The notes under the pieces: model-generated
Databases searched by the model: none
Told to the model about the DNA's origin: nothing
The model's input: only the letters and a program-made list of their open reading frames with translations
Part shown: one piece after another, positions 49,928 through 60,403 of the stretch
How the letters are laid out: each line of letters begins with the position of its first letter
How positions within the stretch are numbered: position 1 is the stretch's first letter
Position numbers and translations under genes: made by a program
Origin: Methanomassiliicoccales archaeon
GTDB lineage: Archaea > Thermoplasmatota > Thermoplasmata > Methanomassiliicoccales > JAAEEP01
Length of the DNA stretch: 64,000 nucleotides
Assembly (NCBI GenBank): GCA_013415695.1
Contig: JAAEEP010000007.1
Location: forward strand, 38,088-102,087
Direction of reading: 5' to 3'

Positions 49928-52900
49928 GTGACGGGTGGATACATCAAGCAGCTCGAGCTTACCAAACAGCTTGAGAAGCAGGCCAAGAAGGCCGCGGCGA
50001 ACCGCGAGGCGGCGGAGAAGAAAATCGAGGAGTCAGAGGAACTCATAGCATCCGCCAAGAGGATGGGGGCGAACGCGGCCGGGGCAGAGAAGCTGCTCGT
50101 GGAAGCGAGTGAGGCATTTTCCAGGAAGGATTACAAGGGAGCACTGAGTCTCGCCATCAAATCAATTGAGGTATCTGGTGAGGCCAAAGCAAACGAGATC
50201 GAGAACATTATCAAAACCACGAGGGAACTGCTTAGCAACATGGGAGAGCTGGCTACCGATGCAAAGGAACCTACAGCCGCAATAGAGCAGGCTGTTGGGC
50301 TCCTTGAGAAGGGGGATCTTGACGATGCCTACGCAGAGGCTAACATCGCTTGGGATGTGGCCGAGAGATTCATAAACGCCAGGATGGCGGATGAATTCGA
50401 AAGAGCCCAGTCCCTGCTGCTCCTGGCCGAGAACGAGAACATCAATACCGACAGTGAAAGGGAGCAGCTCTCTCAGGCAAGAAGGTCACTTGAGAGCGGG
50501 GACTTCGTGGAATCAATTGACCTGCTCACCTCTTGCCTGGAATCGGTGAGCGATGGTCTCATCAATCTTTACCACAAGAGGAAGCTTGAACTCCAGAAAG
50601 GAATGGAAGAATCCAAGTCCGTTTCCATCGAGCTTTCCAGGGTCTCCGACCAGATCCAGAAAGCAGACGAGCGGATAGCTCAGGCTGACATGGAGGAGGG
50701 TCTTTCTGACTTGACAATCGCGGAGGGGGAGTTCCGCAAGTCATTCTCAAGGGCTTTGTTGAAGGAATTCGACTCTCTCGAGAGCAGGCTGGAACTGCTC
50801 TCACGTTATGAGGAGGAAGTTTCCGAGCTGGGGTCCCCCATAGCCAGGGGGAGAGGACTGACCAGGGATGGAGAGTACCTGAACGCTTTGGAGATATGCC
50901 GCGATGTAATCGACAAAGTGAACGAGAACGAGCTGAATGTGCTGGCCACGCAGATCTACAATCTCAAGCCCAAGCTTCAGATAGCCAAGAGAACCGGCAA
51001 TGACACCAAGAAGGCGATCGGACTTATCGAGGAATCCAAGGTGACCATTCAAGGTGGGGACTTCCAGGGGGCTTTGGACCTTATCCATCAGGCGGACATT
51101 GTTCTAGAAAGGGAGCTCGAAGGATTCCGTGAAGTGGAGATGGAACTGGTGAAGACTGAGAATCTGATGATCCGGGCCGATCGGTACGGTTTGGACTGCT
51201 CCCGAGCGGAAGACTCTATGAGATCGGCAAGGACTCTGGCTCTAAAGGCGGAATTGGGTGAATCAGTAGAGCAGATGAAGGCAGCCCAGAAAGAGCTGGA
51301 CAAAGAGATTCAGCAGTACCTTGGTAGCGAGATAATGAGAGCTGAGTTGATGCTCGCCTCCGCCATGAGGATGGGCTCTGATGTTACCAAGGAGAGTGCG
51401 ATGATCGATGATATCATGGCACGGGTCCGCAGTGGTGACTACACCGATGTAGACGATCCCCTCGAGAAATGCAGAATGTACATCAGGGAATTCCTTGAGA
51501 TAAACTCTGAGAAGACCATCGATCATGCGAGAAATCTTCTAGAGAAGTACGAAGGCATGGCTAATATCACCTCTTCCAGATTGATGCTGGAAGACGCCAT
51601 GTCGGCCTTCGACGGAAAGGACTTCGACAAGGCATTCAAGATGGCCAACAAGGCCATTCAAGAACTGGAGAAACAGGAGAACGCGGTCTTGGAGAACCAA
51701 CTAAATGAAGCTCGAAGACTGCTCGAGATCAACAAGGGGCTGGGAGCGGAGAGCGCCACCATAAATGAAAGGGTGGCAGAAGCGGAGGCTTTGAGACTTG
51801 ACGGAAGGACCAAAGAGGGCATCCTGGCTGCCAGCGAGGTTCTTCAACTTGCTGGATCAGTTGTCAGGGAACATATCAGAAAGGGAATGAATTCCCTCTC
51901 AAGATCGATTTCTGCCGCCCGAAAGAAAGGCGTGGAGATCCTGAGGGTAGAGAAACTTGCCCAGCGCGTATCCAGTTCCCTGGAGAATGACCAAGTCGCG
52001 GATGCCTATGATATCCTCCAGGAGGCGGACGAGGAACTCAGAGGCCTGCTTAATAAGCACGAGGAAGTGAGCGAGTACCTCCAGGACATCGAAGGACTGA
52101 TCGAGGAAGCAAAGGCAAACGGAGTCGATGTGAACAGCTCCGAGCAGTTCCTACAGCAGACCAGGGTGCTATTCGACGCAGGTGAGTACGATAAGGCTAG
52201 TGAGCTTGCCAGGAAGACCTTAGGCGAGGCGGAGTCCAAGACGGCCCTCCTGATGGCGCCAAGAAGGATACAGGAGGTCAAGAACCTGATCGCCACTGGA
52301 AAGAGGCTGGACCTGGATGTTTCCAAAGAGGAAGTGGAACTGAGTAAGGCCCAGTCCCTCCTGGACATGGGACAGCATATCCAGGCACTCGCGTCCACCA
52401 AGAATATCAGACGGGATATGAGGGATCGGATCGTGCAGGGATTGAAAGGTGAGATATCCAGGGCTCGTGAGATGATCACCAGGGCAAGAGAGCTGGGCGC
52501 GGATGTCTCCGCCATTGGTAACATAGTCGATAGGGCTGAGAAGCTGCTGGGCGAGGACAGGGTTAACGATGCCCTGAGGGCTGTGGACCTTGTCAAGAAA
52601 GAACTGGATCAGGGCCTCATCATCGAGAGGAAGGCCTCTGAAGGGATAGCCAGGGCTTCGGCTGTCATCTCGAACGTACGCAAGGCGGGAATGGAGCCTG
52701 CCGGTGCGGTGGAGATCCTGAGACAAGCAAAGGATCAGGCCCAGGCTGGAAGGGGCGGAATCGCCATGGAGCTCGCCAAGAAGTCGGCAGACCAGGCTGC
52801 TGAGACCGCCCGCACGAAGCTCATGGAGAGGTTCAAGAACCTGGAGATCACCCAGAGGGCCATGGAGGTTGAGGGCTCGGATCTGAATCAGGCCAATAGG

Positions 52901-54259
52901 ATGAAGTCGGACTTCCGGAAGATGCTGGAGGAATGGAAGTTCACCCACGCATTGACGCTTCTCGATAATCTAGAGGAGGAGCTGGAGCGCCTAGACAAGC
53001 AGAAGAAACTGGCCACGGGCACTCTGGAGGAAACAAGGGCCAAGGTAACGAAGGCAAAGGACCGTGGCCTGATATCGCAGAAAGTGGAGGACCTGCTTGA
53101 CAGCGCCATTTCTCGCTTGGAGGAGGGAGCTTACACGGCGGCTTTCTCCGATGCCATACGGTGCAGGGACGAGCTCAGGTCCTTGGAGGAACTGTACGAT
53201 CGTAGGATGGGAGACCTCGGTAAGCTCAGGAAGAGAATGGAAGCTGCTTCGAATGAAGGCGTGGACATCTCTTCAGTATCTGGCTACTTCGACGAGGCTG
53301 AGCGTTCACTGAGACAGCTGGACTTCGAGGAAGCGAGTCTCAATCTGAGTCGGGGAGATACCGCATTGGGCAAGAAAATCGAAAATAAGATGGAGTCCCG
53401 ACAGCAGGATATGCGCGCTCTATACCGCCTATACTGCGATCTTGGACTGAACGAAAGCGATCCCCTGGAGAAGGTCGTTCGCCAAACGGAGATGAAACGA
53501 CTGAAGCCTGATGAATTCAAGACCCTGAATCAGAATCTCGACCAGCTCAGGGAGATCATCGAGAAAAGGATGGAGACGACGCTGGGAGAGATCTCTGGAA
53601 GGATCCAGGTGGCCAGCAAATCCGGGGCGGATGTTTCTACTAGTGAATACCTGCTCTCCCAGGGAAGGGAACTGCTGGGAACTGGCAATCTGAACGAGGC
53701 CTTCTTCATGATCAAGGAGGCAGAGGACAGTATAGGAGTGGCCATGGATGAACGGCGCGAGTTCATGGAGCTGAAGATGCGCTGCGAGAGCCTCATAGAA
53801 AATGCCCGACGCAACGGACTGGTGATGGAATGGGTGATAAGCCTGGTCGCTAAAGCGGATGGGGAGAGGAAGAGCGACTACAAGGCTGCGATCGAGACAA
53901 TGAAAGAGGCTCTATCAAGGGCGGAGGAAGAGGCTGCATCATATCTACCAGAGCTGGCAATAGACATCAACTTCCTTGACCCGGCAGCGTCAGACCAGTG
54001 GATGAGGGCCAGAGTTGTGATCTCCAATGAGAGCAAGGCCATGGCAAGAGACGTTCGCATCGAGCTTTCCGGCGAGATAGAGGTGAGAGGTCTGGAAAGC
54101 ATTAAGAAGCTTAGGAGCAACGAGAGCAGGGAGATTGAATTCGAAATAATGCCCCTTAGGAAGGGGGACATCGAGGTCAATTTCAGCCTTTCCTGTCGTC
54201 CGGTACTATCTGAGGACACCTTCGGTCTGGAGTCCTCATTCCAGCTGGAAGCCGAGTAA
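49928..54259 (+). CDS. Giant (1443-residue) alpha-helical tandem-repeat protein with C-terminal beta domain
   Basis: No enzyme motif is visible. Residues ~35-1330 consist of roughly 21 degenerate repeats of about 60-66 residues, each a pair of long helices with a turn of the type AK-x2-G-x-D-V-S followed by L-x2-G-D/E-Y-x2-A. Examples lie near residues 44, 363, 451, 646, 712, 840, 1225. The last ~100 residues (from LAIDINFLDP) look like an Ig/CARDB-type beta domain. No signal peptide or membrane helix, so it is cytoplasmic. GTG 49928 has TTGGAGTG upstream. A scaffold or cytoskeletal role is inference. Such proteins occur in related archaea as unnamed coiled-coil proteins. Confidence 0.8.
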   Translation: MTGGYIKQLELTKQLEKQAKKAAANREAAEKKIEESEELIASAKRMGANAAGAEKLLVEASEAFSRKDYKGALSLAIKSIEVSGEAKANEIENIIKTTRELLSNMGELATDAKEPTAAIEQAVGLLEKGDLDDAYAEANIAWDVAERFINARMADEFERAQSLLLLAENENINTDSEREQLSQARRSLESGDFVESIDLLTSCLESVSDGLINLYHKRKLELQKGMEESKSVSIELSRVSDQIQKADERIAQADMEEGLSDLTIAEGEFRKSFSRALLKEFDSLESRLELLSRYEEEVSELGSPIARGRGLTRDGEYLNALEICRDVIDKVNENELNVLATQIYNLKPKLQIAKRTGNDTKKAIGLIEESKVTIQGGDFQGALDLIHQADIVLERELEGFREVEMELVKTENLMIRADRYGLDCSRAEDSMRSARTLALKAELGESVEQMKAAQKELDKEIQQYLGSEIMRAELMLASAMRMGSDVTKESAMIDDIMARVRSGDYTDVDDPLEKCRMYIREFLEINSEKTIDHARNLLEKYEGMANITSSRLMLEDAMSAFDGKDFDKAFKMANKAIQELEKQENAVLENQLNEARRLLEINKGLGAESATINERVAEAEALRLDGRTKEGILAASEVLQLAGSVVREHIRKGMNSLSRSISAARKKGVEILRVEKLAQRVSSSLENDQVADAYDILQEADEELRGLLNKHEEVSEYLQDIEGLIEEAKANGVDVNSSEQFLQQTRVLFDAGEYDKASELARKTLGEAESKTALLMAPRRIQEVKNLIATGKRLDLDVSKEEVELSKAQSLLDMGQHIQALASTKNIRRDMRDRIVQGLKGEISRAREMITRARELGADVSAIGNIVDRAEKLLGEDRVNDALRAVDLVKKELDQGLIIERKASEGIARASAVISNVRKAGMEPAGAVEILRQAKDQAQAGRGGIAMELAKKSADQAAETARTKLMERFKNLEITQRAMEVEGSDLNQANRMKSDFRKMLEEWKFTHALTLLDNLEEELERLDKQKKLATGTLEETRAKVTKAKDRGLISQKVEDLLDSAISRLEEGAYTAAFSDAIRCRDELRSLEELYDRRMGDLGKLRKRMEAASNEGVDISSVSGYFDEAERSLRQLDFEEASLNLSRGDTALGKKIENKMESRQQDMRALYRLYCDLGLNESDPLEKVVRQTEMKRLKPDEFKTLNQNLDQLREIIEKRMETTLGEISGRIQVASKSGADVSTSEYLLSQGRELLGTGNLNEAFFMIKEAEDSIGVAMDERREFMELKMRCESLIENARRNGLVMEWVISLVAKADGERKSDYKAAIETMKEALSRAEEEAASYLPELAIDINFLDPAASDQWMRARVVISNESKAMARDVRIELSGEIEVRGLESIKKLRSNESREIEFEIMPLRKGDIEVNFSLSCRPVLSEDTFGLESSFQLEAE

Positions 54260-55849: not shown

Positions 55850-56266
55850 TCACTCGCTGGGCCGGGTGTTAACGGGCACGAACTTGTAGCCGTAGTGGAT
55901 CACACCGCCGGGACCCTCGTCCCCCAGCTTGCGCAGTGTGGACCTAACCCTCATCCCGATGTCAACTTCCGTTGGTTCGCAGTCGATGACCTGGGCTGTG
56001 ATCATGATGCCCTCGTCCAGCTTGATCATGGCCATGACGTAAGGCTTCAGTATCTCCAGCTGCGACGGTGCATCATGCACCACCGAGTACGAGAAGATCT
56101 CCCCTTCGCCCTTGAGGCGGACCTTCTCCATCTTCCCGATGGATTTTCGACGACAGTCGGGGCATACGGACCGTGGAGGGAAGAACATCTTGCCGCAACT
56201 CCCGCATCTCGAACCCATTAGGTTGTACCTGCTGGGGTTGTCCCTCCAGTATCTTGGTGCTGGCAT
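55850..56266 (-). CDS. DUF35 OB-fold protein with zinc ribbon (HMG-CoA synthase/thiolase partner)
   Basis: 138 residues. A rubredoxin-like zinc ribbon (RCGSCGKMFFPPRSVCPDC) and an OB fold (GEGEIFSYSVVHDAP, DIGMRVRSTL). In archaea this protein bridges thiolase and HMG-CoA synthase so that acetoacetyl-CoA can pass between them in a shared CoA site. It ends the operon HMG-CoA synthase, thiolase, DUF35; the ATG lies directly after the thiolase stop. All expected zinc cysteines are present. Confidence 0.93.
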   Translation of the reverse strand: MPAPRYWRDNPSRYNLMGSRCGSCGKMFFPPRSVCPDCRRKSIGKMEKVRLKGEGEIFSYSVVHDAPSQLEILKPYVMAMIKLDEGIMITAQVIDCEPTEVDIGMRVRSTLRKLGDEGPGGVIHYGYKFVPVNTRPSE

Positions 56267-57433
56267 CTAGACCACCCCCAATATGTGAACAACGACTGTC
56301 GACCCCGTTCCTCCCACGTTCTGGGCGAGGCCGATCTTCGCACCATCGACCTGACGCTTGTCCGCCTCTCCTCTGAGCTGGGCGACTATCTCCACCGCTT
56401 GGGCCACGCCTGTCGCGCCAATAGGATCTCCGCGCGCTTTAAGTCCACCTGAGGTGTTGATCGGAATCTTACCACCAAGCTCGGTCTGACCTTCCTCAGT
56501 CGCCTGGCCTCCCTTGCCCTTCTTAAAGAATCCAAGGTCCTCGATCGCCAGGATCTCAGAGATGGTGAAGTTGTCGTTGACCTCCGCCACATCGATATCA
56601 CTTGCTTTGATACCCGCCATCTCGTAGGCATTCCTTGCGGCCACGGCTGTCGCTTCGAAACTGCAGATGTCCTTCCGATGGTGCAGGGCGAGAGTGTCAC
56701 TTGCCTGAGCTGATGAGAGTATCTTGACTGGTTTATCGGTGTATTTCTCGGCGGTCTCCATGGCACACAGGACCACGGCAGCCGCACCGTCGGAGTTCGG
56801 AGCGCAGTCGAACATGCCTAGAGGCTCGGCCACGGGGGACGAGTGAAGGACCGTCCCGAGCTTGATCTCCCGCCTGAACTGGGCTTTGGGGTTCAACGAG
56901 CCGTGCTTGTGATTCTTTACCGCAACTTGGGCTATCTGCTCCCTGGTGGTACCGTACTCGAACATGTGCCGGCGGGCGATGATGGCGTGAAGCGAGGCAA
57001 AGGTGGCCCCCATGATGGACTCCCACTGCTGATCCGCAGCCGTAGCCTGGATGGCATTGGAAGCCACGTCCCCTACGTCGGTCATCTTCTCCGCACCGCC
57101 AACCACCACAATATCGTGAATGCCTGAAGCGACGGCCATGTATCCCTGCCTGAGAGCTAGCCCACCAGATGCTCCAGCCGCCTCGATCCGGGTGGCCGGG
57201 ATGTGATCCCTGGCCATGCCAGAGTAGTCGGCTATCAGCGCACCTATGTGCTCTTGATCGATGAATCTCCCGGCGGACATGTTGCCCACATAGAGGGCAT
57301 CGATCTCCTCCCCCGAGAGGTTAGCGTCGTAGACCGCAGCGAGACCGGCCTCGATACCGATGTCTCTAAATGATCTATCCCAGACCTCGCCAAACCTTGT
57401 TATGCCGATTCCAATAATCGCGACCTCTCTCAT
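56267..57433 (-). CDS. Archaeal thiolase-family protein of the mevalonate operon, catalytic residues replaced
   Basis: 388 residues, full length. It aligns along its length with archaeal acetoacetyl-CoA thiolase ([26 protein letters not shown]), but the nucleophile position in IEAAGASGG is Gly87 instead of Cys, the histidine of the EVHD motif is Asn286 (EVNDNF), and the histidine of the GHP motif is Asp336 (GDPIGATG). With these changes it cannot do normal thiolase chemistry. It may be a structural partner, or use another reaction. Start ATG 57433 overlaps the HMG-CoA synthase stop; the operon order is otherwise standard. Confidence 0.88.
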
Positions 57434-58488
57434 CAGATCACTCCCTTCATTAGGATCTTGCCGCGGAACTTGGCGTAAGTTGCGTAATCTATGAACTTCT
57501 TGTTCTCCACCAGTTCCCTCACGGTGGGAGCGGCGGTCTTGCGGATACGCTTTATCCCAGGGGTAACGGTTATATCGAAGCCATCGGCCCCCGCCCCAGA
57601 ACCGTATGCCATCGCCATGATACGCTCATTGGGCTTGGCCACGTCGAGAATTGCCGACAGCCCCAGGGGGACGCATCCGGAATAGGTGTTCCCGATGAAG
57701 GGCGTTAGCAGACCAACCTCGATCTGGTCCTCTGTGAATCCCAGCTGCTTGGCCACCCTCAATGGGAACTTGCCGTTGGGCTGGTGGAATACCGCATAAT
57801 CGTAATCTTCGGGTTTTGACTTCGCCATCTCCATCAAGGACTTGGCGTTGGCTATGATGTGCTTGAAGTAAGCGGGCTCTCCCGTGAAGCGCCCCTCGTG
57901 GGATGGATAGGGCTGGCCCTCCCTCCTCCAGAAGTCCGGGGTGTCGGTGGTGTACGAAGAGGTGTGATTGATCTTCGCAATGAGCTTCTGCGACCCTATC
58001 AGGAAGGCCGCTCCACCCGCTGAAGCTGAATACTCCAGCGGGTCGCCGGGAGCTCCCTGGGAGGTGTCCGCCCCAATGGCAACACCGTACTTCACCATTC
58101 CAGAGCCGACAAGGCCCATACATGTCTGTATGGCCGCTGTTCCGGCCTTACAGGCGAATTCGAAGTCAGCGACGGTCAGGTTGGGCGAGGCCTCGATCGC
58201 CTCCGCCACTATCGTCCCGCTGGGCTTGACAGCGTAAGGGTGCGACTCCGATCCCACATAGATCGCTCCGATCTCCTGTGGATCGATGTTGACCCTTTTC
58301 ATCATGTTCCGGGCGGCCTCCACCGAAATGGTGATGACATCCTCATCCGGAGATGGGACCGACTTGCTGAAAATGAGCAACCCCCGGCTCAGAGCCTCCC
58401 CATCGGTACCCCATACCTTTCCAATTTCTTGGGGGGCGATCCGGTACCTTGGGATATATGCTCCGTAACTTACAATTCCTACATCCAT
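57433..58488 (-). CDS. Archaeal hydroxymethylglutaryl-CoA synthase
   Basis: 351 residues. The catalytic triad is intact: Glu81 in [16 protein letters not shown], Cys113 in [10 protein letters not shown] and His235 in VFHQPNGK. It condenses acetyl-CoA with acetoacetyl-CoA as the first committed step to isoprenoid lipids. ATG 58488 has AGGAGGAGGATC upstream. It lies 13 bases after the HTH regulator gene, and its end overlaps the thiolase start. Unlike its thiolase neighbour, it appears fully active. Confidence 0.95.
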
Positions 58489-58501: not shown

Positions 58502-59185
58502 CTAGTCAATGCTCTCGAGTTTCTCAACGAGTGTCTTGACTGGCATATCGATTCTTATCAATGGAATTCCCTCAAGGGTGGCAAGACGGATAGCTAGATC
58601 ATCCACGTGTTCCGGTTTGTGATAGGCGACCAGGGCCGGTTTGAGTGGATGGGCCCTTATCGCTATCATCGGTGATCGTCCGAACTTGACTCCAGTGAAG
58701 ATCAAAGCCCTCTCGCTGCTCCACCCATAGATCTTGAGGTAATCAAGAGATGAGAGTGATGTGATGGCCTTCATCGAGTCTATCACAGTGAATCCGTGGA
58801 TATCACGGTTGAGCGAGACGGTGTGGGTGAGATTATCACCATTCACCAATCTCATGAACTTCTCGGCCGACATGCTGGTCTTGAATTCCTTGATGCTGAT
58901 GATGCAATCGCTCTTCTCCCCCAGGTTGTATTTCTTGATCGTTGGCGAACCGTGCTCTTCATCTATTGTGATAAGTCCATTCACGATGCGCCTGACGATC
59001 ACGATGCCGGGGGACTTCCTCCTTCCAGACTCGTAATCGCTGATGACCGAGGGGGAAACCCTGAGCTTCCTCGCCAGCTCCTGCTGGGAGATCGCGAACT
59101 CCTCCCTCCATTTCCTTATGGTCTTTCCAGCGTCGTCCGAGAGAGTGATTTCTCCTGCGATCTTTTCCCTCAGCTCTTCACGCAT
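58502..59185 (-). CDS. HTH (Cro/C1-type) regulator of the mevalonate operon
   Basis: 227 residues. An XRE-type HTH at about 24-58 ([30 protein letters not shown]) is followed by a C-terminal domain of about 140 residues with [17 protein letters not shown], conserved with this operon in many archaea; it may sense an isoprenoid intermediate, though that is inference. ATG 59185 has no ribosome site, but a TATA box (AAATTTAAATATAC) lies 20-30 bases before it, so the transcript is leaderless. First gene of the operon. Confidence 0.92.
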
Positions 59186-59287: not shown

Positions 59288-59791
59288 TCAACGATTCACA
59301 TCCGTTTTTCGATCGAGAGATGCGATGATCTCCGTTAGATCAGGGCTGACGGCGGGTTGGTCCGCCACCCACTTGTATGTGATGCATCCATCCTTCTGTA
59401 TCACGAATATCGCCCTGTTCGAAAATCTCTTGAGAAGTCCGTTCTCGTTCTCTATGAAGACCCCGAAGAGCTTTGACGCCTTACCGTTGGCATCGCTGAG
59501 CATGCGGAATGGGACCTTCATCTTGCCCCCCCATCCTCTATGGGAGCGTATCGAATCGGTGTTTATCCAGACAACCCTGTAGCCGCGCGAATCGAACTCT
59601 TTCTTGGCCTCCTTGAACTCCCTCATCTCGATTGAGCATACCACTCCAAAATCCGCTGGGTAGAATACCAGAACTATGGGGCCCGACTTAAGCTCCTCGC
59701 CCAGGTTGAACCATTGCTCATTGGCATCCATGACCCTGAAATCCGGAGCTTCCTCTCCGGTGCATAGGTGGGAGTCGGGCCTTTGGCGCAT
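59288..59791 (-). CDS. Peroxiredoxin-like (AhpC/TSA family) protein
   Basis: 167 residues. FYPADFGVVCSIEMREF holds the peroxidatic cysteine (Cys52). The usual Thr three residues before the cysteine (TxxC) is Gly here. A cysteine near the C-terminus is present only in QKDGCITYKW, so the enzyme may be of 1-Cys type or use another resolving thiol. Start ATG 59791 after GAGGT. A paralogue lies directly upstream on the same strand; together they look like a tandem duplication. Confidence 0.85.
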   Translation of the reverse strand: MRQRPDSHLCTGEEAPDFRVMDANEQWFNLGEELKSGPIVLVFYPADFGVVCSIEMREFKEAKKEFDSRGYRVVWINTDSIRSHRGWGGKMKVPFRMLSDANGKASKLFGVFIENENGLLKRFSNRAIFVIQKDGCITYKWVADQPAVSPDLTEIIASLDRKTDVNR

Positions 59792-59840
59792 GATACCTCA
59801 AAAGGAGCAAGAGGTAGATAACTTCAATCCCCCGACATGA

Positions 59841-60338
59841 TTACGGGTGACCTTTTACCAGGTCACGGACGGCCTCCATGACCTCCTCGTAATTGGGTTC
59901 GTAAGCGGGATCATGAGCGACCCAGCGAAATCTTATCTCCATTTCCTTATCGACCAGGAAGACAGCTCGATTTGCCAGTTTGAAGTACAGCTCGTCCTCC
60001 ATAAGCACCCCGTACTCCTTAGCAACCTTGCCTTCCTCATCGCTGAGCAATTTGAAGGGGATCTTCAGCTTTCCCTTCCATACTCCATGCAGGGGGGGAT
60101 CGTCGACGCTAATGCCTACGAATTGCACTCCCAGGTCATCGAACTCGTCCTTGTACTTCACGAACGTCTTCATCACGATGTTGCACATGATGCCGAAGTC
60201 CGAAACATAGAAGTGCACGACCACCGGACCATTCTTGACTTCTTGGCTCAATCTGAAATCGCAAGTTGGCGAACCAGGAAGGCAGAAATCTGGAGCTTTC
60301 ATTCCAACCTTGAGGTGAGAATCTGGCTGGATGGTCAT
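59841..60338 (-). CDS. Peroxiredoxin-like protein, tandem paralogue
   Basis: 165 residues. VHFYVSDFGIMCNIVMKTF keeps the peroxidatic cysteine at residue 52, but both the Pro and the Thr of the PxxxTxxC motif are replaced (Val and Gly). ATG 60338 aligns exactly with the neighbour's start (Q/R-P-D-S-H-L); an ATG at 60377 is in frame too. The replaced motif suggests lowered or changed peroxidase activity, perhaps a redox sensor. It lies 49 bases upstream of the other copy. Confidence 0.8.
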   Translation of the reverse strand: MTIQPDSHLKVGMKAPDFCLPGSPTCDFRLSQEVKNGPVVVHFYVSDFGIMCNIVMKTFVKYKDEFDDLGVQFVGISVDDPPLHGVWKGKLKIPFKLLSDEEGKVAKEYGVLMEDELYFKLANRAVFLVDKEMEIRFRWVAHDPAYEPNYEEVMEAVRDLVKGHP

Positions 60339-60403
60339 TGGACTTGGAATACATTGCCACCTAATGAAATGCACCATTGCCGATCAGCGGAAAATGCATA
60401 CGG

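Follow-up and report, generated by a model that had tools for sequence, protein, structure and literature searches.

Why would an archaeal mevalonate operon maintain, in full length and beside an apparently active HMG-CoA synthase, a thiolase homologue in which the catalytic residues have been replaced? This question is raised by a locus from a Methanomassiliicoccales archaeon, located in the 64,000 nucleotides of contig JAAEEP010000007.1 that were analysed here as a whole (the window) and that belong to a genome of 2.0 Mb in 41 contigs, 99.6% complete. The features of the window on which the argument rests are the following:

58502..59185, minus strand: HTH protein, just upstream of the HMG-CoA synthase (PF01381, weak aMBF1-like match)
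57433..58488, minus strand: HMG-CoA synthase, 351 aa from the ATG at 58488 (TIGR00748, 576 bits for a longer TTG reading)
56267..57433, minus strand: Cys-less operon thiolase (putative pseudo-thiolase), 388 aa (Pfam Thiolase_N, Thiolase_C_1)
57173..57175, minus strand: codon 87 GGA, Gly at the position of the nucleophilic Cys (EAAGASGG; 6esq alignment)
56576..56578, minus strand: codon 286 AAC, Asn at the His of HDCF (6esq alignment)
56570..56572, minus strand: codon 288 AAC, Asn at the Cys of HDCF (6esq alignment)
56426..56428, minus strand: codon 336 GAT, Asp at the His of GHP (6esq alignment)
55850..56266, minus strand: DUF35 protein, 138 aa, zinc ribbon and OB fold (PF12172, PF01796)

In SCP2-type thiolases, the catalytic residues are the Cys of CxS, the His and Cys of HDCF, and the His of GHP. 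The codons of the window gene and its alignment with the thiolase of M. thermolithotrophicus (6esq, E 2.7e-113), which has Cys, His, and His at columns 87, 286, and 336, confirm the replacements by Gly87, Asn286, and Asp336 given in the preliminary description. Its statement that the frame is intact, of full length, and in a normal operon also holds, the 388-aa frame at 56267-57433 being open, with the synthase upstream and DUF35 downstream. A fourth catalytic position, absent from that description, is replaced as well (Asn288). The protein reaches 590.6 bits against NCBIfam NF053570 (AcCoTHIOL_METTL), below the cut-off of 600, and none of the residues of that type (Cys in CxS, His in HDCF, His in GHP) is present. 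Moreover, the predicted model (pLDDT 88.9, pTM 0.92) matches 6et9 and 6esq with a TM of 0.95-0.96, corresponding to the thiolase fold of the 6ESQ type, an outcome expected with or without the Cys. The nearest named database match comes from a Methanomassiliicoccales archaeon, at 80% identity; this order belongs to Thermoplasmata, in the phylum Thermoplasmatota. Order, family (f1, f2, and so on), and phylum denote below the groups assigned by the genome search, and it is from such named matches that the order is taken to be Methanomassiliicoccales. In comparison with the M. thermolithotrophicus complex (6ESQ/6ET9), the window thiolase shows 49% identity, the same fold on the model, and the same three kinds of gene, whereas the Cys, the His and Cys of HDCF, and the His of GHP are all replaced and the genome carries a second, intact thiolase.

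On the minus strand, the gene order is HTH protein, HMG-CoA synthase, thiolase homologue, and DUF35, the last three lying side by side. The stop of the synthase and the ATG of the thiolase overlap by one base, and the DUF35 gene, rightly counted as part of the operon, starts directly after the thiolase stop (TAG, then ATG). Also, the synthase keeps Glu81, Cys113, and His235 (numbering from the ATG at 58488) and would thus be active, as had been proposed. The HTH gene overlaps the long TTG reading of the synthase and not the ATG reading, and its product is a possible regulator of the operon. Elsewhere in the window, a 1443-aa protein (49928-54259, plus strand) shows apparently repeated helical units, as judged by eye, and no Pfam match, and two tandem peroxiredoxin-like genes, also recognized by eye, occupy 59288-60377 on the minus strand.

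The spread of the Cys loss was read in 193 loci, one from each of 193 genomes spanning 43 families, among the matches listed from a 295-genome sample of the phylum; many f9 and f32 genomes of this sample lie outside the 193 loci. Nine rows were left out as likely paralogues, giving 184 loci and 40 families: six f32 genomes, L179 (G105, f25), and L182 (G303, f13), with no HMG-CoA synthase match beside their best matches (L179 and L182 nonetheless have a DUF35 match nearby), and L189 (f19) on its 31% identity alone. On the other hand, L181 (f33) was kept because it is located in the operon, and family f38, with weak matches at best (E 3.8e-6 or worse), stands outside the counts. Among these listed matches, the Cys is absent in 137 of the 184 Thermoplasmatota operon thiolases and kept in 47, and its state is uniform within every family, 30 being without it and 10 with it. 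Residue 87 in the Cys-less proteins is Gly in 89, Ser in 18, Asp in 15, Thr in 9, Glu in 4, and Ala in 2. The order Methanomassiliicoccales is Cys-less in all 66 genomes read (60 Gly, 4 Asp, 2 Ala), so the loss of Cys87 is no chance event, and 71 of the 118 genomes read from the rest of the phylum also lack it.

The other positions behave differently. At position 336, the 66 genomes of the order divide into 29 with Asp, 18 with His, 15 with Tyr, 3 with Asn, and 1 with Phe, and in the Cys-less proteins as a whole this residue varies over H/D/Y/Q/R/N/F/C. Position 286 is His in 65 of the 66, being Asn only in the window genome; Asn286 is shared by the closest database proteins (P0001-P0009, with some others) and, elsewhere within the 184, by f14, f17, and two genomes of f9. 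On the sequences compared, the change from His286 to Asn is a local one. Then, the suggestion that Gly/Asn/Asp could be a conserved trait stands for the loss of the Cys, in the order and in most of the phylum sample, and fails for the full set, whose Asn and Asp are not traits of the order. The outcome that had been named as contrary evidence, a lone decayed copy among sister genomes with Cys/His/His, is not what the order shows. Among named organisms, the thiolases of M. luminyensis and M. intestinalis have Gly/His/Asp at 87/286/336, that of Picrophilus Thr/His/Asp, and those of T. volcanium and T. acidophilum Thr/Asn/Asn; a difference of about 1% separates the Picrophilus protein from that of L171, where synthase and DUF35 lie beside the thiolase. 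The Cys and both His are kept in named contigs of Methanosarcina, Methanocellales, Methanocorpusculum, Methanosphaera, a Thorarchaeote, and others. In one sub-lineage (L057, L059, L062, L064-L067, L101, L104, L112, and L119 of G334), a Cys occurs at 89, two residues past the lost one (EGGGACG, ESAGACG, EAAGACG), together with GQP or GYP, and is possibly a shifted nucleophile.

A survey of the operon covered 212 loci, 132 from the phylum set with enough flank and 80 named contigs, with some genomes in both. Synthase and DUF35 are both adjacent to the thiolase in 139 of its 148 Cys-less loci; two of the other nine have no room for DUF35 and four no room for the synthase, due to contig ends, and the remaining three have a synthase match 344-407 bases upstream. 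The synthase Glu, Cys, and His are present in 140 of 144 cases beside Cys-less thiolases; the matches in the remaining four are cut. In the order, a thiolase match was found in 87 of the 101 genomes searched, and 12 of the 14 genomes without one are also without the synthase, the exceptions being G024 (78% complete) and G097 (86% complete). Genus g3 of family f3 presents a particular case, since no HMG-CoA synthase match was found in 8 of its 10 genomes searched (G002, G011, G023, G030, G036, G056, G058, and G062), some of them 98-99% complete; in seven of the eight there is no thiolase match either, and in G002 the match is to a terminal fragment of the thiolase. Two other members of the genus, G007 and G019, carry both genes. 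These absences could reflect either a recurrent assembly gap or a loss of the mevalonate entry step. Also, in L073, a Methanosphaera sp. MAG, thiolase and HMG-CoA synthase are adjacent with no DUF35 match within the locus.

The retained gene does not behave as a decaying one. The thiolase matches listed in the order contain no internal stops, and dN/dS was estimated for 17 loci of the order, where 18 of the 25 closest pairs listed gave a dS value and 7 were saturated; the pairs belong to families f5 and f6, with the window gene outside them. Thiolase values range over 0.017-0.169, close to the 0.005-0.143 of the synthase, which, as far as substitution rates tell, indicates that in this order the operon thiolase is under purifying selection. 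Nonetheless, its divergence relative to the synthase is somewhat higher among Cys-less proteins (ratio 1.15-1.32) than among Cys-keeping ones (0.91-1.12), the pairs being overlapping. A comparison of site entropy between Cys-keeping (29) and Cys-less (84) proteins, after an 85% identity filter, places position 336 first among 388 sites for the gain in the Cys-less set, 87 fourth, 288 17th, and 286 143rd. Among the 173 sites conserved in the Cys-keeping set, these four rank 1, 4, 14, and 76, with a p value from random draws of 0.003 for the four and of 0.0002 for the three without 286, a choice made afterwards. Moreover, 64 of 100 near-invariant sites remain so in the Cys-less lineages for the thiolase, against 95 of 110 for the synthase, and therefore the constraint is eased and far from gone. 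In the alignments compared, relaxation hits the catalytic sites and not them alone, and, with 36 of the 100 near-invariant sites showing relaxation, changes in parts of the CoA site are also possible. Some sites look tightened in the Cys-less lineages, a set that is richer in close relatives.

If the operon thiolase is inactive, acetoacetyl-CoA would have to come from elsewhere, and a search for a second thiolase, as had been advised, found one in the window genome. It is a classical thiolase of 391 aa (G000:C5:6106-7281, minus strand) with all catalytic motifs intact (CGSG, NEAFA, GHPIGCSG, CLGGG), and its relatives in the order show 59-72% identity among the matches listed. In the 166 genomes for which both facts are known (18 of the 184 fall outside the table), a classical thiolase is present in 116 of 119 Cys-less genomes vs 18 of 47 Cys-keeping ones, with a Fisher p of 7e-17 that ignores relatedness; a first version of the table, with f32 included and L181 left out, gave 116 with and 3 without vs 24 and 28. 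Counted by family, it occurs in half or more of the genomes in all 29 Cys-less families searched and in 5 of 10 Cys-keeping families. As an outgroup control, 31 of 32 named Cys-keeping contigs were entered, of which 30 were searchable, in a set rich in Methanocorpusculum and Methanosarcina and of unstated completeness; the classical thiolase was found in 2 of these 30 genomes and was absent in 28. No classical thiolase was found in the Cys-less G061 and G065 (both from this order, 96% complete) or G108 (90%), with the same result in both genome searches. Also, 18 genomes keep the Cys despite having a classical thiolase, and therefore the second enzyme is not sufficient for the loss.

Regarding what else this enzyme could do, 3-hydroxyacyl-CoA dehydrogenase was searched for in 21 genomes (the window genome and 20 of the order), with any match in 10, a match over the cut-off in 6, and strong matches in 5, all of f5. 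Acyl-CoA dehydrogenase was found in 3 of the 21, the window genome among them. As judged from these two dehydrogenases, a full beta-oxidation route thus seems absent from most of these genomes, which would make mevalonate supply the most obvious job of the second thiolase. In two f5 genomes, the classical thiolase adjoins 3-hydroxyacyl-CoA dehydrogenase (G008:C9:42599-44364 and G004:C5:124671-126433), and therefore another, butyrate-type route may be served there.

The number of times the Cys was lost was addressed with a tree of 93 rows, from which the four trait columns were removed and f32 was left out. The Cys state changes about 5 times on this tree (4-6 in bootstraps), at least 2 of them on well-supported branches, and the Cys-less state forms one clade in 0% of 200 bootstrap trees. 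The losses in the Picrophilus group (f9, f10, f15) and in the group with Methanomassiliicoccales are likely separate because f8, inside the Picrophilus group, retains the Cys and lacks a second thiolase. Over the two supported independent pairs, the second thiolase goes the same way in 1.4 on average, shows no difference in 0.6, and goes the other way in 0.0; with an earlier tree, one pair went the other way in a few of the 200 pairings. The phylogeny-corrected association (sign test on the two supported pairs) is not significant, because there are too few changes of state. In the genomes compared, the association is strong by genome count, with few independent changes under it.

The best reading of these data is that, in the archaeal thiolase/DUF35/HMG-CoA synthase complex, the thiolase partner has turned into a pseudoenzyme more than once. 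In the window, the gene likely encodes such a pseudoenzyme, retained in the HMG-CoA synthase complex as a subunit without catalysis, with acetoacetyl-CoA predicted to come from the separate, intact classical thiolase. Read directly from the genomes are the losses, their spread over the order and most of the operon-bearing families read, the persistence of the operon and of the synthase residues, the presence of a second thiolase, and, from the pairs compared, purifying selection. The window protein combines lost catalytic residues with a kept frame, fold, and purifying selection, as would be characteristic of a pseudoenzyme, the selection being taken from relatives in the order and the fold from the model. 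Of the two alternatives offered in the preliminary description, it is the pseudo-enzyme keeping its place, with acetoacetyl-CoA from outside, that fits the clade-wide trait, the second thiolase, and their co-occurrence, the Cys being lost almost only where a second thiolase is present in the genomes searched. A Cys-less subunit of the thiolase superfamily beside an active one is also known in type II polyketide synthases as the chain length factor (KS-beta); however, KS-beta is a ketosynthase paralogue, whereas in the window operon the former upstream enzyme itself has lost the residues. We know of no biochemistry or structure for a Cys-less member of the operon thiolases.

As to why the protein would be retained, in M. 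thermolithotrophicus DUF35 mediates a tight association of thiolase and synthase, which share a CoA site and do not release acetoacetyl-CoA, as stated in PMC12329534 (citing Vogeli 2018). Given this shared site, the thiolase body would still be needed to complete the CoA site of the synthase. Then, by analogy, the remaining role of the Cys-less thiolase would be that of a scaffold and of half of the shared CoA site. Once the classical thiolase could supply acetoacetyl-CoA in trans, the nucleophilic Cys would be dispensable and the subunit could be retained for its structural part, so that a channelling two-enzyme complex would become a synthase taking acetoacetyl-CoA from solution.

Another possibility, which seems rather unlikely, is that the protein is a regulatory pseudoenzyme that binds CoA or acetoacetyl-CoA without turnover and gates the synthase. 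The Trypanosoma SCP2-thiolase-like protein (TbSLP), thiolase-like and of the SCP2 group, is not known to have kept thiolase catalysis. According to the titles of its structure entries, it was crystallised with acetoacetyl-CoA and with malonyl-CoA, which, along with the fold and the many conserved sites kept in the operon thiolase, agrees with a ligand-binding role; however, the catalytic sites are among the most relaxed, and there is no pointer to a new ligand. TbSLP also differs from the window operon in having no associated DUF35, as described in PMC12329534.

The gain of another reaction, the second alternative of the preliminary description, is improbable and found no positive support. It would consist of a Cys-independent reaction on CoA thioesters, as in the thiolase-fold aldolases Ltp2 (with the DUF35 protein ChsH2) and Sal (with the DUF35 protein Shy), whose chemistry, according to PMC12329534, is not that of a thiolase and whose structures (6ok1, 9myr) are matched by the window protein. 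This precedent has the same fold and a DUF35 partner, a role for which the gene at 55850-56266 would qualify, and His286, kept in 129 of the 137 Cys-less proteins, suggests that part of the pocket is still constrained. However, the Tyr of the YDxF motif that Ltp2 and Sal need falls at window position 286, as placed by motif and not by residue alignment, where the window has Asn and the 137 proteins have H/N/F/D and never Tyr; membership in this aldolase group was rejected on the missing Tyr. Moreover, position 87 drifts over six residues (G/S/D/T/E/A) and 336 over eight, with no new fixed set, and the gene remains tied to HMG-CoA synthase, whereas the partner of Ltp2 and Sal is a hydratase. 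The PhlABC acyltransferase, with PhlA as a further subunit, and benzoylsuccinyl-CoA thiolase also combine a thiolase fold with a DUF35 protein, as described in PMC12329534, but both are catalytically active, unlike the predicted state of the window protein, which scores 204 against NF053628 (BbsB; cut-off 750).

That the protein retains thiolase activity by means of substitute residues, such as Asp87 or a Cys moved to position 89, is very improbable. The sub-lineage with Cys89 and the lineages with Asp, Glu, Ser, or Thr at 87 would be compatible with this, but the window has Gly87, Asn286, Asn288, and Asp336, residue 87 is mostly Gly, and the only candidate nearby is Ser89, which is also present in active enzymes (47 of 47 Cys-keeping). 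Finally, a lone decayed gene or an assembly error, for which no supporting point was found, can be dismissed almost entirely, as the Cys is lost throughout the order and in 30 of the 40 families read, with no stops in the matches listed and with close pairs giving dN/dS values far below 1.

The literature searched, on inactive or Cys-less thiolases of this pathway and on mevalonate in Methanomassiliicoccales, included few subscription journals and yielded no description of such a thiolase in the operon. Many of these proteins are called acetyl-CoA C-acetyltransferase by JGI and mostly thiolase domain-containing protein by NCBI; if the thiolase half is inactive, the JGI names are likely wrong.

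A broader reading, whose chances we regard as evenly balanced, is that the entry step of isoprenoid lipid synthesis was uncoupled more than once in most operon-bearing families of Thermoplasmatota, the dead thiolase becoming an obligate subunit that provides half of the CoA site of the synthase, and perhaps a gate, and the classical thiolase taking over the supply of acetoacetyl-CoA. Descriptions of the archaeal thiolase/HMG-CoA synthase complex present it as a channelling pair from which acetoacetyl-CoA is not released, and a thiolase half that is inactive yet kept in many families would represent a natural experiment on the purpose of this complex, testable in cultured organisms such as Thermoplasma, Picrophilus, and Methanomassiliicoccus. 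If this is true, the shared architecture would matter even without channelling, and these operons would provide a repeated case of an upstream enzyme becoming a subunit of the next one.
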